A stretch of 34,142 bases of DNA. It comes from Singulisphaera sp. GP187 (GTDB lineage Bacteria > Planctomycetota > Phycisphaerae > Phycisphaerales > SM1A02). A program made the translations under genes and the position numbers. The DNA lies in NCBI GenBank assembly GCA_945868805.1, contig CAMBMO010000024.1:1-34142 (forward strand). Direction: 5' to 3'. Each line of letters begins with the position of its first letter. The first letter of the stretch is position 1. The notes below the pieces were generated by a model. That model was given only the letters and a program-made list of their open reading frames with translations. It had not been told where the DNA came from and ran no database searches. Below are positions 3,933-14,038 of the stretch, one piece after another.

Positions 3933-6632
3933 ATGCCGATTCGTTCCATCCTTGCGTCGATGCTTCTGATCCATCTAAGTGCGACTGCCTGCGCGCAAGT
4001 GCCGAGCGCGCCTCCAACCATTTCGACCGCTGCGGTTGTAGGGAAGACCGGCGTGAACCTCTATTACACACCCGCCAATCAGCGACTGACTCCGACGGGG
4101 ATGCAGGTCGAGTTACCTGGCATGCGTCCGCAGGTCATCGCGCTCAGCCCCGACGGGACCTTACTGGTGACTGCGGGAAAGACGCACGAGTTGATTGTGA
4201 TTGATCCGACTTCTGGGTCCATCAAGCAACGCGTCGCATTGCCATCGGAGCGCGAGCATGCGAGTTCGCCCGATGTGGCATCGCCGCGCTTCTTGAGTCC
4301 CGACAAGGATGGTCAAGTCAGTTTCACCGGCCTTGCATTTTCTTCGGATGGAACGCGCATCTACCTCTCGAATGTCAACGGAAGCGTGAAGGTCTTCGCG
4401 GTCGCGGACGGCACTGGTGTCACGGGGCTCTTCACGATTGCGCTACCAGATGCGAACGCTCCGCGGCGAGAAGAGGAGATCCCTGCCGGGCTCGCAGTTT
4501 CCTCGGACGGAGCGAAGTTGTATGTCTGCGGCAATCTCTCCAATCGATTGTTCGAGATCGACACGAAGGATGGCCGCGTCATTCGAACATGGGATGTCGG
4601 GGTAGCGCCCTTCGATGTCGCGCTCGTGGGGACGAAAGCATTTGTGAGCAATTGGGGCGGTCGCCGACCCGACGCGTCGTCGGTCACCGGACCCGCAGGA
4701 CGCGGCACGGTGGTGCGAGTCGATTCAATTCGCCACATTGCAAGCGAAGGATCGGTCAGCGTGATTGATCTTGCGGGCAGCGGTGCAACGGCCGAAGTCG
4801 TCACGGGAATTCACGCGAGCGCACTCGCAGTCTCGCCCGACAAGCGCTGGATCGTCGTCGCCAACACAGGATCGGACACGGTCAGCGTGATCGACACGAG
4901 CACGAACGCGATCGTTGAGACGATCTGGGCGCGCCAGAATCCTGCGGACCTGTTCGGCGCTCAACCCACCGCGCTTTGCTTTGACAAGTCGGGTGAGAAG
5001 CTCTTCGTTTGCAACGGCAGTCAGAACGCAGTTGCTGTTTTCGAGTTTGAACCTGCGCACTGCGAGCTTGAAGGACTCATCCCCGTGGCATGGTTTCCAG
5101 GTGCGATCGCGGCCGCGTCGAAGGGCGACCAGATCACGCTCTTTGTTGCCAACATCAAAGGCATCGGATCAACGAAGAAGTTTTTCCCTGGCGAGAAAGT
5201 CGAGCTGCAGTCGCGGCAGTATTTCGGGTCGCTGTCGATTGTCCCGATGCCTACGGTGGCAGAGTTGCTGCCGATGTCGCAGATCGCACTCGACAACATG
5301 CGATACGGATTGTTGGCCCAGGCGAAGTTGCCTGCGCGTCCAGACCAGCCTGGCCGCGCCGTTCCAGAACGCGTCGGCGAAGCGAGCCTCATCAAGCATG
5401 TCGTTTACATCGTGAAGGAGAACCGAACCTACGACCAAGTCTTCGGCGACGTCACGCAAGGGAAGGGTGATCCCACGCTTTGTGTCTACGGCGAGGAAGT
5501 CACTCCCAATCTGCACAAGATCGTTCGCGAGCATGTGCTGCTCGACAACACCTATTGCTCTGGGATTCTGAGCGCTGATGGTCACCAGTGGTGCGATACT
5601 GGATTGGCGACGGACTATGTTGAGCGGTCGTTCGCAGGATTCCCGCGCAGTTATCCCGATGGGATGGAACTCGACGGCGCGGATGCTCTGGCGTACTCGC
5701 CCGCGGGATTCATCTGGGACAACGCACTTGCGCATGGCAAGTCACTGCGGGTCTTTGGCGAATTCGCGATCACGAGCAAGCGCTGGGCCGATCCAGCGCG
5801 CAAAGGGAAAATCACCTCGCGAGATTGCCTTGAGGCTTTCAAGAGTTCAGATGGATCGATTGTCGTCGAGAGTCTCCCGACGATTGAGTCGCTTCGACCC
5901 TATCTCAGTTCGCGGGGCCCAGGATGGGACATGGACATTCCAGATGTCTGGCGCGCGCGCGAATTCCTCGCAGAACTCGGCGAGTACGAGAAGTCAGGCG
6001 CGATGCCCGACATGATCGTCCTCTGCCTTCCCAACGATCACACCAGCGGGACCAGCGCAGGGATGCCTACTCCAGCCGCGCAGGTCGCCGACAACGATCT
6101 CGCGTTCGGGCAGATCATCGAAGCACTCAGTCGAAGTTCGTTTTGGAAGGACACCTGCGTCTTCGCCATCGAGGATGATCCGCAGAACGGGTGGGATCAC
6201 ATCAGCGGATATCGCACGACCGCGTTCGTGATCAGCCCGTACACGAAGCGTGGCGCAGTCGTCAGCACGCAGTACAACCATACGAGCATCCTTCGGACGA
6301 TGGAACTGATGCTGGGGCTTCCGCCGATGAATCAGTTCGATGCGACGGCGACTCCCATGTTTGATTGCTTCACCGACATCGCGGACATGACGCCGTACGC
6401 AGCCGTTCAGAATCGCATTCCGCTCGATCAGATGAACCCAGATCCCAAAGCGATCAATGATTCACTGCTGCGTGAGCATGCGATTGCGTCTGCAAACTTG
6501 CCGCTCGAGAAACTCGATCAGTGTCCCGAAGATCTGCTCAACCGAATTCTCTGGCATGCTGCGAAGGGGTCTCGCGCGCCGTACCCAGTGTGGGCAGTCA
6601 CACTTGATGAGGAAGTCGAAGGTAGGGACTAG
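3933..6632 (+). CDS. Secreted YncE-like beta-propeller fused to an alkaline-phosphatase-superfamily phosphoesterase
   Basis: About 899 residues. It starts with a cleavable signal peptide (MPIRSILASMLLIHLSATAC). Residues about 40-460 are propeller repeats of the YVTN/YncE kind (IALSPDGTLLVTA, LAVSSDGAKLYVCG, LAVSPDKRWIVVANTGSDTV). From about 480 onward comes the phosphoesterase domain, opening with HVVYIVKENRTYDQVFGD and later NDHTSGTSAG and EDDPQNGWDHISGYR, which hold the metal ligands and nucleophile region of the AcpA/phospholipase-C-like family. Fusions of this kind are known in Planctomycetota and Acidobacteriota; the substrate is unknown. The ATG at 3933 is chosen because it sits directly before the signal peptide; a TTG at 3924 is an alternative. 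It is convergent with the TatD gene. Confidence 0.85.
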   Translation: MPIRSILASMLLIHLSATACAQVPSAPPTISTAAVVGKTGVNLYYTPANQRLTPTGMQVELPGMRPQVIALSPDGTLLVTAGKTHELIVIDPTSGSIKQRVALPSEREHASSPDVASPRFLSPDKDGQVSFTGLAFSSDGTRIYLSNVNGSVKVFAVADGTGVTGLFTIALPDANAPRREEEIPAGLAVSSDGAKLYVCGNLSNRLFEIDTKDGRVIRTWDVGVAPFDVALVGTKAFVSNWGGRRPDASSVTGPAGRGTVVRVDSIRHIASEGSVSVIDLAGSGATAEVVTGIHASALAVSPDKRWIVVANTGSDTVSVIDTSTNAIVETIWARQNPADLFGAQPTALCFDKSGEKLFVCNGSQNAVAVFEFEPAHCELEGLIPVAWFPGAIAAASKGDQITLFVANIKGIGSTKKFFPGEKVELQSRQYFGSLSIVPMPTVAELLPMSQIALDNMRYGLLAQAKLPARPDQPGRAVPERVGEASLIKHVVYIVKENRTYDQVFGDVTQGKGDPTLCVYGEEVTPNLHKIVREHVLLDNTYCSGILSADGHQWCDTGLATDYVERSFAGFPRSYPDGMELDGADALAYSPAGFIWDNALAHGKSLRVFGEFAITSKRWADPARKGKITSRDCLEAFKSSDGSIVVESLPTIESLRPYLSSRGPGWDMDIPDVWRAREFLAELGEYEKSGAMPDMIVLCLPNDHTSGTSAGMPTPAAQVADNDLAFGQIIEALSRSSFWKDTCVFAIEDDPQNGWDHISGYRTTAFVISPYTKRGAVVSTQYNHTSILRTMELMLGLPPMNQFDATATPMFDCFTDIADMTPYAAVQNRIPLDQMNPDPKAINDSLLREHAIASANLPLEKLDQCPEDLLNRILWHAAKGSRAPYPVWAVTLDEEVEGRD

Positions 6633-6644
6633 AGCAGGCAAGCC

Positions 6645-6672
6645 GAGTCGCAGTCGAGTCGAAGTCGAGTCG
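6645..6672 (+). repeat. Short 11-base tandem repeat between convergent stops
   Basis: GAGTCGCAGTC, then GAGTCGAAGTC, then a partial GAGTCG, in the 44-base gap between the stop of the phosphoesterase (6632) and that of the TatD hydrolase (6677). Probably slippage-derived filler; no hairpin with a T-run is present. Confidence 0.6.
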
Positions 6673-6676
6673 TCGC

Positions 6677-7471
6677 TCAGAAGCGAAACCGGCCCGACTG
6701 CGAGAGAAACTGCTGCGGATTGTCGAATGAGACCTTGCGAATGACTGCCTCCAATTGACCACGCCTGCGCATTTCTTCCCGGCACTTGGGTACTGCGAGC
6801 GGATCGCTGACTCCCCAGTCCGCGGCGGAATTGATCCACAAGCGCTCGGTGCCGTGCATCTCGAAGATGTCCGTTGCTCGCTGTGGGGTGCACTTCGTAT
6901 CGGGGTAGAGCGTCATCCCAGCCCAGAACCCGCGGTCAAGTACGAGCCGCACGGTGTGCTCTTCGACATGGTCGATCAGCACTCGACCAGGATCGACACC
7001 ATGATCCTGGATCGCATCCATGATGATGCGCGTGCCCTTGAGCTTGTCTTCGAGGTGTGGCGTGTGCACCAGGATGAGCAAGTTGCGACTCTTCGCAAGC
7101 GCAATGTGTTCGTTGAGCACAATGAGTTCGTTGCGCGAGTTCTTGTTGAGTCCAATCTCGCCGATGCCAAGCACGCTTGGTCGGTCGAGAAACTTCGGAA
7201 TTTCCGCGAGCACTTCACGCGCGAGCCCGATGTCCTCGCTCTCCTTTGGATTGATACACAGCCACGTGTGGTGACGGATGCCGAACTGCGCAGCACGCTT
7301 TGGTTCGGTGTCGGTCAGTTGCCCGAAATAGTCGACGAATCCTTGCGCACACGATCGGTCGTAGCCAGCCCAGAATGCCGGCTCGGTGATCGCAACACAA
7401 CCGGCCAGTGCCATGCGCTGGTAGTCGTCGGTCGTGCGCGAAACCATGTGAATGTGCGGATCGATGTACAT
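6677..7471 (-). CDS. TatD-family metal-dependent hydrolase, EboB-like
   Basis: 264 residues, full length. The amidohydrolase/TatD barrel is complete: DPHIH at residues 4-8, the Glu of LGIGEIGL, His of LVHTPH, His of LIDHVEE and the late Asp of [12 protein letters not shown]. The segments [17 protein letters not shown] and [17 protein letters not shown] fit the TatD branch found in ebo clusters rather than housekeeping TatD nuclease; this subgroup call is from memory of the family. Ebo genes are known from eustigmatophytes and many bacteria, and in cyanobacteria they take part in moving scytonemin precursors. It starts seven bases after the 110-residue gene and is last in a three-gene operon. 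The ATG at 7471 is chosen because the catalytic DPHIH normally lies at the very N-terminus. Confidence 0.82.
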
Positions 7472-7478
7472 GCAATTC

Positions 7479-7811
7479 TCAGCGTGGGGGCGCGATATGC
7501 GGCAGTGGAACAGCACCGATCGCACCTTTCATCCCAGCTTTTTCGATTGGTTCGATTGTGTGGTCGCTCCATAATTCCAGCGCTCGCCGCGTTCGCTCGG
7601 GTTTCCCGTCGCGGAGCAATTCGAGCGCGGCGCACAACGCACGGATTCGAACATCGATTGTCGTCGCGGAACCTGCGACTCCCTCGGACTTTGCGGCACG
7701 GTCGAATCGATCTAGAAACGCAGCGATATCGAGCAGCTTCGCGCGGTGCTCCAGAAAATACTGGTCCGCAATCTGACTTGCCTTCGGCGGGACGGGGGTC
7801 GGAGTCGACAT
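7479..7811 (-). CDS. Small helical protein between eboD-like and eboB-like genes
   Basis: 110 residues, mostly predicted helix, with no Cys motif, signal peptide or membrane segment. The core reads [20 protein letters not shown] and [20 protein letters not shown]. The frame is open much further upstream (to 8135), but that part is the shadow of the cyclase gene; the ATG at 7811 lies ten bases after the cyclase stop. It is too short for EboA, which is about twice this length, and no other Ebo family was recognised. Tight packing on both sides (ten and seven bases) indicates co-translation and probably a shared pathway. It may be a planctomycetal member of the ebo pathway; that is inference. 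Confidence 0.7.
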
Positions 7812-9098: not shown

Positions 9099-10589
9099 CT
9101 AGGGAGTCGGCTGCAACACAGCGAGTCGCTTTGTGCGGTCCCTTTCGAAAATGATCCGGGTGGTCGTTGCGGAGTTGGATTTGGCGATCGCAGTTCGGAA
9201 ACCGTCAATGGTTTCGACGACGAATCCGTCGACTTCGCGAATGACATCGCCGCGTTTGAGTCCAGCAAGGAGTGCAGGGCTCCCATCACGCACCCGTTCG
9301 ATTCGCAGCCCCCCGCCCGTAGCGCCGAGTGCAGTCGTGGAGTCAGGGTCGAGCACTCGAATTTCGAGCCCGAGCGAATCCTCGATCGTCGGCGCGACGG
9401 GTTGGGGAACTGATGTGCTATTGGTCGACTCGCCGCCTCGGACTAATTTGGAATCAGGCGATGGTCGCTCGCCGAGTGTGGCGTGGGTCGTGATTGTCTT
9501 TCCGTCGCGAATGACACCAAGCGCGACGGGCTCTTCAGGAGTGCAGTTTGCGATTGTGCGCATGAAGTGAGCGCGCGTTGGTGTCGCCTCGCCGTCGATG
9601 GCGACGATGATGTCGCCGACTTCAATGCCAGCGCGGGCAGCAGGGGTTCCAGGAACCACACCTGCGACAAGAACACCGTCGGTTGAATCGTGCCCGACAC
9701 TCTTCGCGAGATCGCGGTCAAGTTCCCTTGTTGAGACTCCAAGCCAACCTCGTCGAACTTCTCTCCCTTGAGCGATTGACTCCGCGACTTTCTGCACGAC
9801 ATGGCTCGGGATTGCGAATCCAACGCCAGAGCTTCCGCCGGTCTGCGACGCGATTCCACTGTTGATTCCAACCACCTTTCCATCGAGGTCGATGAGCGGA
9901 CCACCGGAGTTTCCAGGATTGATCGCCGCGTCAGTCTGGATGTACTCCTCGAATGTCGAAAGCCCGAGTCCATCGCGACTCTTCGCGCTCACGATTCCAG
10001 CCGTCACGGAGTGTTCGAATCCGAACGGGCTTCCAATGGCGAGCACCCAGTCCCCAGTTTCGATTTCGCGGGAGTTTCCAAATGACGCCGCCTGCAGTTT
10101 CGTCGCCGCAATCCGGACGACCGCCAGGTCAGTTTCTCTGTCGGTTCCGACGATGGTCCCCTGAAATTTTCTCCCATCGAAGAGGCGAACCGTCACTTCG
10201 TCGCCACCCGAGACCACATGATTGTTCGTAATAATTAATCCATCTTCGGAGAGGATGACGCCGGTTCCCTCGCCGCGCACTTCACCTCGTTGGCGACCCC
10301 GGCCTTCACTTCGGTGTTCGGTTGCGAATGGCGGTCGATCGATGGTTGTGATTGCGACGACACTCGGACCAACTCGTTTCGCCACCTCGCGAAACGCTCT
10401 GGAAAGACTTCGGGCGTAGTGCAAATCGTCTGCGACATTGCCCTCTTGGGGATCGCCTCCGGATGCGGCGCCAGTCAGGGCACTCGCAATCGCCAATGCA
10501 ATGATTCGAGCTCGCCAAGGCGAGTGTCGAACTTGCGAAGCTAGAGATACAAGTGATTGGTTCCCAATTCCATCGCCCATAAAACCCAT
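9099..10589 (-). CDS. DegP/HtrA-family serine protease with two PDZ domains
   Basis: 496 residues. An N-terminal hydrophobic stretch (residues about 28-45) is a signal peptide or anchor, placing the protease in the periplasm. The trypsin-like domain has its full triad: His124 (TNNHVV), Asp154 (ETDLAVV) and Ser228 (INPGNSGGP). PDZ1 follows at about 275-365 (DGVLVAGVVPGTPAARAG) and PDZ2 at about 405-490 (GLRIERVRDGSPALLAGLKRGD). The family degrades or refolds damaged envelope proteins. The ATG at 10589 has AAGG immediately before it; the second ATG at 10580 has better spacing from that AAGG and is equally plausible. The gene follows the methyltransferase by 41 bases and ends at the terminator at 9000-9035. 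Confidence 0.93.
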   Translation of the reverse strand: MGFMGDGIGNQSLVSLASQVRHSPWRARIIALAIASALTGAASGGDPQEGNVADDLHYARSLSRAFREVAKRVGPSVVAITTIDRPPFATEHRSEGRGRQRGEVRGEGTGVILSEDGLIITNNHVVSGGDEVTVRLFDGRKFQGTIVGTDRETDLAVVRIAATKLQAASFGNSREIETGDWVLAIGSPFGFEHSVTAGIVSAKSRDGLGLSTFEEYIQTDAAINPGNSGGPLIDLDGKVVGINSGIASQTGGSSGVGFAIPSHVVQKVAESIAQGREVRRGWLGVSTRELDRDLAKSVGHDSTDGVLVAGVVPGTPAARAGIEVGDIIVAIDGEATPTRAHFMRTIANCTPEEPVALGVIRDGKTITTHATLGERPSPDSKLVRGGESTNSTSVPQPVAPTIEDSLGLEIRVLDPDSTTALGATGGGLRIERVRDGSPALLAGLKRGDVIREVDGFVVETIDGFRTAIAKSNSATTTRIIFERDRTKRLAVLQPTP

Positions 10590-10630
10590 CCTTTCGCTCG
10601 GCGTTGCTACGCACGAGCGGATTTAGTGGT

Positions 10631-11545
10631 TCAGAGAATCTTGACGATGGGATGCGCAATTCGGTGCAGGCAGATGCTTGCGGCAACTGCAGCATTGAGC
10701 GAGTCGACTGAATCCGCAATCGGAATTCGCACTCGGTGCGTGACGACTGCCATGACGGCAGGCGAAATGCCGTCGTGCTCGTTCCCGACGACCAACATCG
10801 TCGGGGGAGTCTCAATCCCTTGGCTTCGCTCAATCTGCGCATCAAATGTTGCGATGTCTTGCGCGTCGCGGGCGCAGTCCGCCGCGAGGACTCGAAGGAT
10901 TGGTCTCGTCGTGCGCAGGTGCATGATCGTGTGCGCGAGATCATCGCACCACGCATAAGGAATCGTTAGTGCATGCCCCATCGAAACGCGTAGCGACTTT
11001 CGATAGAGCGGGTCGTGCGAGTTGCGCGAGAGCAGGACGCCGCCGACGCCAAAGGCAGCGGCACCGCGAAAGAGTGCTCCGACATTGTCCATGTTGCTCA
11101 CGCTGTCGAGAGCGAGGAGCATTTTCGCGGTTGGGAATGGATGGTCGAAAGGCGATCGTTCATCGAGCGCCGATCGAAGCCCGATCGCAAGGACACCGCG
11201 GTGCAGATCGAATCCGGCGGTTTGTTCGAGGACAGCATCTTCGACTCTGAACAGGGGGGTTTGCGGTGATGCGCTCTGTGCGATCGCATGCGCGACGCGC
11301 TCTGCCATTCGCTGCGATGAAACAACGCTCTTGGTGATTCCAGCGATTGCGAGCATCCCGATGACGATGGGAATCGTCTCGCCAACGAAGAGCCCTTCGC
11401 TTCGCCGCGCACCGGACAAATCGCGCTCGCGCAGAAAGCGATAGTCGTCGAGGCGAGGATCGTGGAAGTCTGTCAGCGGCTTGTCGATCCCGCGCTCACT
11501 CACTGAATTGGACGGGGGTTTCGAGCAGAACACTTGATCGATCAT
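10631..11545 (-). CDS. SpoU/TrmH-family RNA 2'-O-methyltransferase
   Basis: 304 residues from the ATG at 11545. The SPOUT domain is complete in the C-terminal half: motif 1 DNVGALFRGAAAFGV, motif 2 LVVGNEHDGIS and motif 3 IPIADSVDSLNAAVAASI, which form the knotted SAM site and dimer interface. The family methylates a ribose of rRNA or tRNA; the target is not predictable here. The N-terminus is unusual: residues 7-19 are coded by one copy of a 41-base repeat shared with the end of the E2 gene, and residues 1-6 come from DNA that appears inserted. A GTG at 11503 is probably the original start; it would have overlapped the E2 stop by eight bases before the insertion. Confidence 0.88.
   Translation of the reverse strand: MIDQVFCSKPPSNSVSERGIDKPLTDFHDPRLDDYRFLRERDLSGARRSEGLFVGETIPIVIGMLAIAGITKSVVSSQRMAERVAHAIAQSASPQTPLFRVEDAVLEQTAGFDLHRGVLAIGLRSALDERSPFDHPFPTAKMLLALDSVSNMDNVGALFRGAAAFGVGGVLLSRNSHDPLYRKSLRVSMGHALTIPYAWCDDLAHTIMHLRTTRPILRVLAADCARDAQDIATFDAQIERSQGIETPPTMLVVGNEHDGISPAVMAVVTHRVRIPIADSVDSLNAAVAASICLHRIAHPIVKIL
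11489..11529. repeat. 41-bp perfect direct repeat, copy 1 (in the methyltransferase N-terminus)
   Basis: Identical over 41 bases to 12685-12725, in the same orientation. Here it codes, in a different frame from the E2 copy, for the start of the SpoU methyltransferase (SKPPSNSVSERG). It contains the probable original GTG start at 11501-11503. Confidence 0.93.
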
Positions 11546-11676
11546 AGGTCGAGCTCAGTTGGTTCTGAATCGAGAAGCTGTTGTGCAGTCGGTTGAGTAG
11601 ACTTTGAACATGGTGGCGGCTGGTGCCGCTGACTGTTGATCAGGTGCAGCGACACAACAATTGGGGAAACACTTTC

Positions 11677-12702
11677 ATGTCTGACTTTCATATTCGACAT
11701 CCAGATGGATCGATGTACGGTCCATATACCGTGGCGGAACTTCGGAAATACGCGAAGGACGGGAGGATTACGGCGGCTACGGAAATTTGCAGGGTCGGGA
11801 CCACAAAGTGGGTGAAAGCGAACCAAGTTCGAGGGCTCGGCGAGTTCGAACCGTCAGGCATACCTGCCTCTGGCGATGCTGGTGTCCCAGTTGAACCAGC
11901 GAAGGGAACACCAGAACCGATCGTTGCAGAGACCGCCTTCGCCGATAAGGAATTGCACGAGCCGGATCTTCCCCGAAAGCGTGCGCCTTCAACTTCCCCG
12001 GACAAGCAACTGCCGATCGGTGTCGTCGATCGGCTCCTTCGCGCAGCGTTTCAGTGGGCGAGATCCGTCTCGGTGGCAGTGATAGCACTCTGTGCGGTCG
12101 CAAGCATTTGTGCTGTGGCTCTTGGCGTCTACGCGATCATGCCGCAAACACCGAACTTTAGCAATTCATGTCCGACGCCAACGATGGGCGAATTTTCTGC
12201 TGCTTGGGCTGTCGATTCCGAGAATCAGCGGAACAATCGTCCTGAGTCAGAGGCTGGCGACGAAACGTCGCTCGGATCGATCGATCCATGCGAGGCACAT
12301 CGGGCGCGGGTGGTCTCGGTTGTCAAGAAACTAAAACTCGACGAGCAAGCCGTGTACGTCATTTGCCAAAAGGTGGTCGCCCTTCCCGAGGGGTGTCGCG
12401 AGCCATTCGTGAGTGGGTTTGTCGATTTCTCTTCGTCCTTCGCGGCGGCAGCCCCGACGAACGAGTCATGCACGGCAGCCGATGCGGCCAATTGGTACAT
12501 CAAGACATTCGAGTCCGGAGTGCTGAAAGCCCAATTCGAAGCCAATCAGCGAGAATTAGCGGCGGCGAAGCGTCGCGAATTGCTCCAGCCCGCACTCAGT
12601 ACGGTCGGTTTCGCGTTCGTCGGGTTGCTCAGTTTTCTTCTGCTCCCCCTCTTGATTCAGATCGAGCGAAACACCCGTCTCCAGCCCGCGCTCACTCACT
12701 GA
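11677..12702 (+). CDS. GYF_2/DUF4339 membrane protein (apparent insertion in the operon)
   Basis: 341 residues. Residues about 1-50 are a GYF_2 domain (HPDGSMYGPYTVAELRKYA, WVKANQVRGL), a small fold that in eukaryotes binds proline-rich peptides and in planctomycetes is often tied to membrane segments. Two transmembrane helices follow, at about residues 132-156 (SVAVIALCAVASICAVALGV) and near the C-terminus at about 308-330 (GLLSFLLLPLLIQI), with a 150-residue loop between. The ATG at 11677 has GGGG about ten bases upstream and begins right at the GYF domain. It runs against the surrounding minus-strand operon, and its last five codons and stop lie in copy 2 of the 41-bp repeat, overlapping the E2 gene tail to tail. 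Confidence 0.8.
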   Translation: MSDFHIRHPDGSMYGPYTVAELRKYAKDGRITAATEICRVGTTKWVKANQVRGLGEFEPSGIPASGDAGVPVEPAKGTPEPIVAETAFADKELHEPDLPRKRAPSTSPDKQLPIGVVDRLLRAAFQWARSVSVAVIALCAVASICAVALGVYAIMPQTPNFSNSCPTPTMGEFSAAWAVDSENQRNNRPESEAGDETSLGSIDPCEAHRARVVSVVKKLKLDEQAVYVICQKVVALPEGCREPFVSGFVDFSSSFAAAAPTNESCTAADAANWYIKTFESGVLKAQFEANQRELAAAKRRELLQPALSTVGFAFVGLLSFLLLPLLIQIERNTRLQPALTH

Positions 12703-12725
12703 ATTGGACGGGGGTTTCGAGCAGA
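12685..12725. repeat. 41-bp perfect direct repeat, copy 2 (E2 C-terminus)
   Basis: Identical to 11489-11529, 1196 bases away. On the minus strand it codes for the natural-looking E2 end LLETPVQFSE plus stop; on the plus strand it codes for the last residues (PALTH) and stop of the GYF protein. Confidence 0.93.
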
Positions 12726-14038
12726 CGAATCACTTCGCTCATGAAGCGAACAGCTTGCGCACCGTCCACGACTCGGTGGTCACAGGAGATTGAAAGTGGT
12801 AGGACAAGCCCCGCGTAGAACTTTCCGTCCTTTACCAGCACTCGTTCGCGTGCACGACCGACTGCGAGGATCGCGACCTCTGGATAGTTGATGATCGGTG
12901 TTGCGAACATCCCACCATAGGAACCGACATTTGAAATCGTAAACGTTCCGCCGAGAGACTCCTCTCGACTGATCGAGCGATCCTTGCACTTGCCCGCGAG
13001 TGTGCGAACGGCTGTGCCGAGCTCAACCGCCGACTTGCGATCCGCATCGCGAATGACGGGGACCATGAGTCCAGAATCGGTGTCGACAGCGATGCCGAGA
13101 TTGATCACGCCCTTGATCAGAATCTCGCTGTTCGCGTCATCGACATTGGCATTGAGTGCTGGGAAGGCGCGTAGTGCCTTGCAGACCGCAAGCATCACGA
13201 ATGGCAACATCGACAATTTTTCGCCGACGACCTTTGAATACTCGCGCCGTTTGAGATCGAGTTGCGTCACATCGGCTTCGTCGACCGCGGTGAAGTGCAC
13301 GGCGGTTTGAACGGATCGTGTGAGTGCCTCGGCAATCTTTCGACGAACGCCGCGGAAGGGGATGCGCTGCGAAACACCGTCTTTGTCGACAGGTGGAAGG
13401 ACAATTGGATCCGGAACCGCACGCGCGCTCGTAGCTCCGCCCGCGAATCCTCCAACATCGCTCGCCGTCACGCGACCTCCGCGTCCAGTGCCGTCCACAC
13501 GATTGATATCCACGGAAAGCTCTCGTGCGATTCGTCTCACCGCTGGAGTCGCGAGTGATTTGCCCTGCGGGGTTTTCACCGCACGGTGCTCTTCCTCGCG
13601 GCGAGCGAATCGATTGCCGACACTCAGCGTGCCTTGCATGCTTCCGACGACGGTCCCTTGATCCTCTGTCGGGTTCTTGGCTGGTGAAGGCACACCAGCG
13701 GCGACTTGTGCCGAAACACATGCCGGAGCATTCTCGCGCGACGGTGCGATCGCAGCGGGCGCGGATTTCGTCGCGTTCGTCGGGCCATATCGAACCAGCA
13801 CGGCCGCGACTTTGATGATGTCGCCTTCCTTGCCACAGAGTTCAGAGATCGTTCCAGCCCATGGACTCGGCACTTCGACAAGCGCTTTGTCCGTTTGCAT
13901 TTCCGCCATCGCCTGAGATTCCTTCACGGCATCGCCTGGCTTCACAAGCCATCGGATGAGTTCGGCCTCCACCAATCCCTCGCCGAGATCGGGAAGCAGG
14001 AAGTGGCTCTTATCCGCGGGTTGTTTGAGTCCAGCCAT
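12692..14038 (-). CDS. 2-oxoacid dehydrogenase E2 (dihydrolipoyl acyltransferase)
   Basis: 448 residues. The lipoyl domain is at about 11-85, with the lipoylated Lys51 in EMQTDKALVEV; the E3/E1-binding domain is at about 160-195 (LATPAVRRIARELSVDI, GTGRGGRVTASDV); the catalytic acyltransferase core runs from about 220 to the end, with His421 and Asp425 in SCDHRVVDG. A single lipoyl domain and the linked leucine dehydrogenase favour the branched-chain 2-oxoacid complex, but a pyruvate-specific complex cannot be excluded. It follows E1beta by 49 bases. The C-terminus and stop lie in the 41-bp repeat. The E3 gene is not in the window and must come from elsewhere. Confidence 0.93.
   Translation of the reverse strand: MAGLKQPADKSHFLLPDLGEGLVEAELIRWLVKPGDAVKESQAMAEMQTDKALVEVPSPWAGTISELCGKEGDIIKVAAVLVRYGPTNATKSAPAAIAPSRENAPACVSAQVAAGVPSPAKNPTEDQGTVVGSMQGTLSVGNRFARREEEHRAVKTPQGKSLATPAVRRIARELSVDINRVDGTGRGGRVTASDVGGFAGGATSARAVPDPIVLPPVDKDGVSQRIPFRGVRRKIAEALTRSVQTAVHFTAVDEADVTQLDLKRREYSKVVGEKLSMLPFVMLAVCKALRAFPALNANVDDANSEILIKGVINLGIAVDTDSGLMVPVIRDADRKSAVELGTAVRTLAGKCKDRSISREESLGGTFTISNVGSYGGMFATPIINYPEVAILAVGRARERVLVKDGKFYAGLVLPLSISCDHRVVDGAQAVRFMSEVIRLLETPVQFSE

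Follow-up and report, generated by a model that had tools for sequence, protein, structure and literature searches.

A 1,155-bp segment carrying one gene, on the opposite strand, for a GYF-domain membrane protein was found between the gene for the E2 component of a 2-oxoacid dehydrogenase complex and spoU. Comparison with genomes of the same genus supports the conclusion that this segment entered the E2-spoU junction in this lineage and that the target was duplicated on entry. The event was probably a one-off insertion with a long (41-bp) target duplication. All coordinates refer to the window, which is the whole stretch of DNA that was analysed (34,142 bp). The features of the locus are as follows.

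10631–11503, minus strand: SpoU-family RNA methyltransferase (Pfam SpoU_methylase, E 1.1e-28), with the GTG start assigned by congener comparison
11489–11529: repeat copy 1 (41 bp, spoU side), containing the ancestral spoU GTG start (11503–11501, minus strand)
11530–12684: inserted segment (1,155 bp), missing from the E2-spoU site in 17 congeners
11541–11569, minus strand: weak sigma-70-like match inside the insert, a candidate for spoU (9 of 12 positions; consensus match only)
11677–12702, plus strand: GYF_2-domain gene, 341 amino acids (Pfam PF14237, E 1.1e-8; hydropathy; homologues)
12685–12725: repeat copy 2 (41 bp, E2 side), of which 34 bp encode the native C-terminus and stop of E2 and 7 bp are spacer; the last GYF codons also lie here
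12692–14038, minus strand: E2 component of a 2-oxoacid dehydrogenase complex, complete (Pfam 2-oxoacid_dh, E 6e-79; Biotin_lipoyl; E3_binding)

The two repeat copies lie in direct orientation and are identical at 41 of 41 bases. Their edges are sharp because the flanking bases differ: to the left of the copies 7 of 20 are alike, and to the right 4 of 20. The initial annotation had described identical 41-base copies with different flanks, and both this description and all of its coordinates held on re-examination. The repeat is the sole direct repeat of at least 17 bp within the window, and in 200 windows simulated with a second-order Markov model of the window statistics, the longest repeat per window measured 14–19 bp. 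The 33-base core of the repeat, searched with up to 3 mismatches, occurred twice in the 2.5-Mb draft genome, both times at the positions given above.

E2 and spoU follow each other in transcription order on the minus strand, with the GYF gene between them on the plus strand. The GYF and E2 genes are convergent, and their 3' ends overlap at 12692–12702. The GYF protein matched PF14237 with 35.1 bits (cut-off 25.8); the GYF_2 domain is N-terminal, and the hydropathy profile indicated two hydrophobic stretches at residues ~128–156 and ~305–329. The composition of the GYF gene (GC 0.574, GC3 0.607) is near that of E2 (GC 0.587, GC3 0.614). An open reading frame and Pfam search of the insert recognized no gene other than GYF, and thus neither a transposase nor a recombinase. 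The ends of the insert are not inverted repeats, as they are alike at 4 of 20 positions.

The state of the site before the insertion was examined by a DNA search of 41 genomes (our own, 18 congeners, and 22 further relatives). E2 and spoU adjoin each other without an insert in 17 of the 18 congeners; for the eighteenth (G018), this search matched neither gene. With tblastn on 22 loci (L003–L024), E2 was found in all 22 and an adjoining spoU in 18, namely the 17 congener loci (in one of which, L014, the contig stops inside spoU) and L020 from another genus. spoU was not found by tblastn in the stretch examined for L021–L024, which belong to further genera. The GYF gene was present at the junction in none of the 17 congeners that have both genes. 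The co-directional E2-spoU pair that had been proposed as the ancestral state was therefore seen in every congener with both genes, and the empty site that had been predicted for relatives was present in all 17. The opposite outcome, a GYF gene in place in relatives with no repeat, was searched for among the congeners and not found. The nearest of these genomes are ~74% identical to ours at the E2-spoU locus.

When our own flanks were joined at the repeat, the spoU GTG came to lie at −8 and overlapped the E2 TGA by 8 bases, exactly as had been claimed. The joined flanks aligned with the junctions of all 17 congeners from the E2 end into spoU, with gaps confined to the spacer, which differs in length and sequence across the congeners. 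A spoU-frame ATG, GTG, or TTG was located at −4 to +52 from the base after the E2 stop in 16 of the 17; the exception was L014, with a spoU-frame TTG at −29 alone. A stop/start overlap of the same kind (GTGA, 4 bp) was observed in two congeners (L011 and L013). The last E2 residues, which are coded in copy 2, resemble the E2 C-termini of the 17 congeners. The E2-coding part of the repeat (34 bp) is native to the target, because it aligned with the end of E2 in every one of these congeners. The other 7 bp (12685–12691) fall in the congener-variable spacer and were presumably also derived from the target.

The duplication left both old genes intact. E2 terminates in copy 2, which provides its normal C-terminus and stop, and copy 1 holds the spoU start, both as initially annotated; no codon was lost from either gene. 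Both kept complete ends because the duplicated stretch covers the whole overlap of the E2 stop and the spoU start. Copy 1 places 26 bases before the native spoU GTG, and since this ancestral GTG is retained, the new SpoU N-terminus that had been proposed is not needed. The reading frame is also open from an upstream ATG at 11545 (minus strand), and 14 extra SpoU residues result solely if this ATG is used. An overlapping gene pair stays whole only when the insertion duplicates the overlap, so survival may account in part for how long the duplication is. The 1.4 kb searched for sigma-70-like sites contained 1, with 0.2 expected; this weak site is so placed that it could drive spoU, which is now separated from the E2 gene.

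The incoming gene obtained its end from the target. The GYF reading frame runs into copy 2 and finishes there with the codons PALTH-stop, which agrees with the proposal that the duplication supplied its last codons and stop. The boundary between the insert and copy 2 lies two codons beyond the conserved end of the GYF protein. This end is formed by the strongly conserved stretch LLIQIERNTR, found in 14 of the 15 aligned rows (L080 has RNTG); the rows were drawn by motif search, and loci lacking the motif (L082 and L086) are absent from them. As the initial annotation had suggested comparing, the C-termini of the homologues do differ after RNTR: past the conserved end the tails vary freely in length and sequence (VV, TE, AH, SA, PMRL, AELVLD, and DQPDAV, and further AQLAAG, ATLEISREPR, ATLEISRKPR, and VRDPRTLEE). 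Because the tail is free, the stop was borrowed from the target at no visible cost to GYF. We also considered PALTH as a native GYF tail, since RNTRLQPALTH resembles RNTRPKAL plus one residue, with which three homologues from a single genus (G372, G499, and G500) finish. Yet the remaining homologues have tails of no fixed length or sequence, and the likeness is most simply taken as chance.

The GYF gene has a scattered distribution, as matches at E ≤ 1e-12 were obtained in 16 of the 181 family genomes, this one included, and in 3 of 397 genomes drawn from the class. A full-length relative occurs in 1 of the 18 congeners (drafts that are 70–97% complete): in G009, with 36% identity, at another place and without a long flanking repeat. 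In a further congener genome, G011, the relative is limited to the N-terminal part. No other GYF match was obtained in this genome. GYF loci were also inspected in other genomes (18 loci, several short or cut by contig ends), and no flanking repeat of at least 15 bp was detected around them at spacings of 300–8,000 bp. None of 48 GYF pattern matches in viral contigs was confirmed, and the 147 bp upstream of our GYF gene gave a best match of 17 bp among the other loci collected in the analysis.

Judged by the titles of the metagenome-assembled genomes (MAGs), 14 of 16 GYF loci are planctomycete (one Singulisphaera) and 2 are other. Contigs L090 and L096, titled as Acidimicrobiia and Bacteroidia MAGs, carry a planctomycete-type GYF gene, for which mis-binning is possible. 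In a separate comparison, made by eye, the GYF genes of L067/L069 (G011:C12) and L042 (G009:C23) began almost identically and had a similar gene directly before them, but the rest of the protein differed; the GYF domain of G011 sits on a different C-terminal region than that of G009, possibly through a domain swap. In L042, the start of the open reading frame at 9433–10635 (minus strand) resembles, by motif, an integron integrase N-terminus and is fused to an unrelated tail.

Among other explanations, site-specific integration fits best but is unlikely. Here, the 41-bp copies would be attL and attR, the 3' end of E2 the attachment site, and the element either shrunk to one cargo gene or moved in trans. 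Integrated elements whose att repeats lie where a gene ends leave that gene end intact. A pair of perfect direct repeats at the 3' end of a coding gene, with the gene kept whole, suits an att site, and such a repeat is what is seen at E2. However, GYF is the sole gene recognized in the insert, the longest inverted match within the 41-mer is 4 bp, and the repeat core has no third occurrence in the genome. The site is also empty in all congeners with both genes. As for the enzymes, this genome gave no match to the serine recombinase family PF00239 and encodes just two tyrosine recombinases (PF00589). Both are Xer-like; with the domain alone submitted, they were best matched by the XerC/XerD models, at scores below the cut-offs.

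Slightly less probable still is that a GYF-bearing circle or block already had the 41-mer and recombined there, by circle insertion or by tandem duplication with deletion, as has been proposed for transposed Arabidopsis genes (PMC2869330). This would yield an identical final structure, and the closeness of the GC3 values of GYF and E2 suits a local or close source. Against it, extra steps are required, together with a GYF copy beside an E2 end, and the genome contains neither a second GYF match nor a further repeat core.

Transposition of the IS1549/IS1634 type, with GYF as a passenger, is very improbable. It had initially been set aside on the grounds that the repeat is too long. Length alone does not exclude it, since these two members of the IS1634 family are described as producing direct repeats of 8–514 bp (PMC2266710). 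The transposase search covered the IS1634 family (NF033559) and DDE_Tnp_1. The former was not found in any of the 19 genus genomes, and the latter matched once in this genome (L210, G000:C47:515-904), in a sequence with two internal stops that is apparently the remnant of a dead insertion sequence. This broken remnant would speak for such transposition, but the insert has neither inverted repeats at its ends nor a recognized transposase gene, and its right end lies inside the GYF coding region.

An assembly artefact, in which contigs overlapping by a k-mer were misjoined around a foreign contig, is just as improbable. The draft genome consists of 47 contigs, adjacent contigs in de Bruijn assemblies often terminate in a common k-mer, and 41 is a k-mer size in use by assemblers. 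We compared all 94 contig ends for common termini of 15–300 bp and found 13 pairs with a common terminal sequence, which was 149 bp long in 10 of them and 124, 94, and 82 bp long in one pair each. The 41-bp repeat is thus below every join length and equal to none, which makes an artefact unlikely. In addition, the conserved GYF region is complete through its last conserved residue, and the composition of the insert matches its surroundings. These overlaps within the draft assembly answer the doubt largely, though not finally. Separately, the 13 overlapping pairs suggest a contig order for this genome, e.g., C11-C7-C19 and C2-C41-C45-C29.

The insertion stands alone in the DNA that was scanned. 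Perfect direct repeats of at least 22 bp and 200–10,000 bp apart were sought in 40 stretches of this genome (800 kb, about one third) and in 20 stretches of the congeners G005, G014, and G018 (399 kb). Matches were restricted to three stretches, and each was set aside. Those in L062 belong to neighboring genes with similar 3' ends and do not bracket a lone insert; the many repeats in L129, mostly multiples of 126 bp apart, are by eye internal repeats of protein genes; and those in L130 come from two similar neighboring genes. When the first 400 kb was scanned at 20 bp or more, nothing besides L062 was found except repeats less than 200 bp apart. Because no second lone gene bracketed by repeats was detected in the 800 kb of this genome and the 399 kb of the three congeners, a recurrent process is not shown. 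L062 also contains, at 4974–7528, a 35-bp repeat that looks hairpin-like by eye and lies just past the ends of two neighboring genes.

Returning to insertion with a long target duplication, we infer that neither a transposase nor an integrase took part. Canonical end joining is likewise unsupported, because Ku was found in none of the 19 genus genomes; the same search over 14 control genomes did detect it in Bacillus subtilis. With transposition, site-specific integration, and Ku joining disfavored, what remains is staggered-break fill-in by another joining route, a template switch during replication, or recombination involving DNA that already bore the 41-mer. In the proposed course of events, the GYF membrane-protein gene, together with its 5' region, would have landed reversed between E2 and spoU, with 41 bp doubled, and the new gene would have acquired its stop from the E2-side copy. 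This could have occurred at a break whose ends were staggered by ~41 nt and were filled in around the captured fragment. Alternatively, a replication fork may have switched to the GYF donor and come back 41 nt behind its exit point. Taken together as repair, fill-in and template switching are probably the route by which the gene arrived.

Single genes without mobility enzymes of their own do appear in new places. With its sharp bounds and an empty site in 17 relatives, the present case tells strain comparisons precisely where to look. It illustrates that a duplicated overlap allows entry into a tightly packed gene pair with both neighbors unbroken, and that the landing site can supply the stop codon of the incoming gene. 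As a tentative generalization, which we would not yet favor, bacteria lacking Ku or a matching transposase may insert ordinary single genes through general repair, with duplications of tens of bases, and overlapping gene pairs may act as traps in which solely insertions with a duplication spanning the overlap are retained. If such a general repair route were true, the cases from Helicobacter pylori discussed below would exemplify something widespread and would not be peculiar to restriction-modification genes.

Several known systems leave a comparable structure. From elements flanked by att repeats, this locus differs in that no integrase was recognized in the insert and the genome has no further copy of the repeat core. 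IS1549 and IS1634 likewise generate long direct repeats upon insertion (PMC2266710), but these are insertion sequences with a transposase, and here neither a transposase gene nor inverted ends were seen. Closer is the Arabidopsis study: of 126 transposed single genes, 18 were flanked by direct repeats of >30 bp, and in 13 of these 18 the repeat matched the orthologous target site (PMC2869330). As at our locus, a single gene lies between long direct repeats, most of which match the target; the differences are that Arabidopsis is a eukaryote, that donor copies and tandem duplications are known for some of its genes, and that circle insertion was proposed. The same study mentions the H. pylori cases.

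The closest match is the 'insertion with long target duplication' that papers citing Nobusato et al. 2000 (Gene 259:99) report from the comparison of H. pylori strains 26695 and J99 (PMC1643837, PMC3031569, and PMC2749054). According to these papers, the inserts in H. pylori are frequently restriction-modification genes. In both bacteria, the insertion was recognized by comparing related genomes and is accompanied by a long target duplication. In our own reading of the pattern as cited, its features are found here: the insert is absent from the site in relatives (17 of 18 congeners), 34 of the 41 bp are traced to the target, and the insert has no recognized transposase. Unlike the H. pylori cases as reported there, the inserted gene encodes a GYF membrane protein, the planctomycete host belongs to a different phylum, and what was duplicated at the target is the overlap of two genes. 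Most likely, therefore, this locus is an example of an already reported pattern, with a gene and a phylum that are new relative to the H. pylori cases described in those papers.
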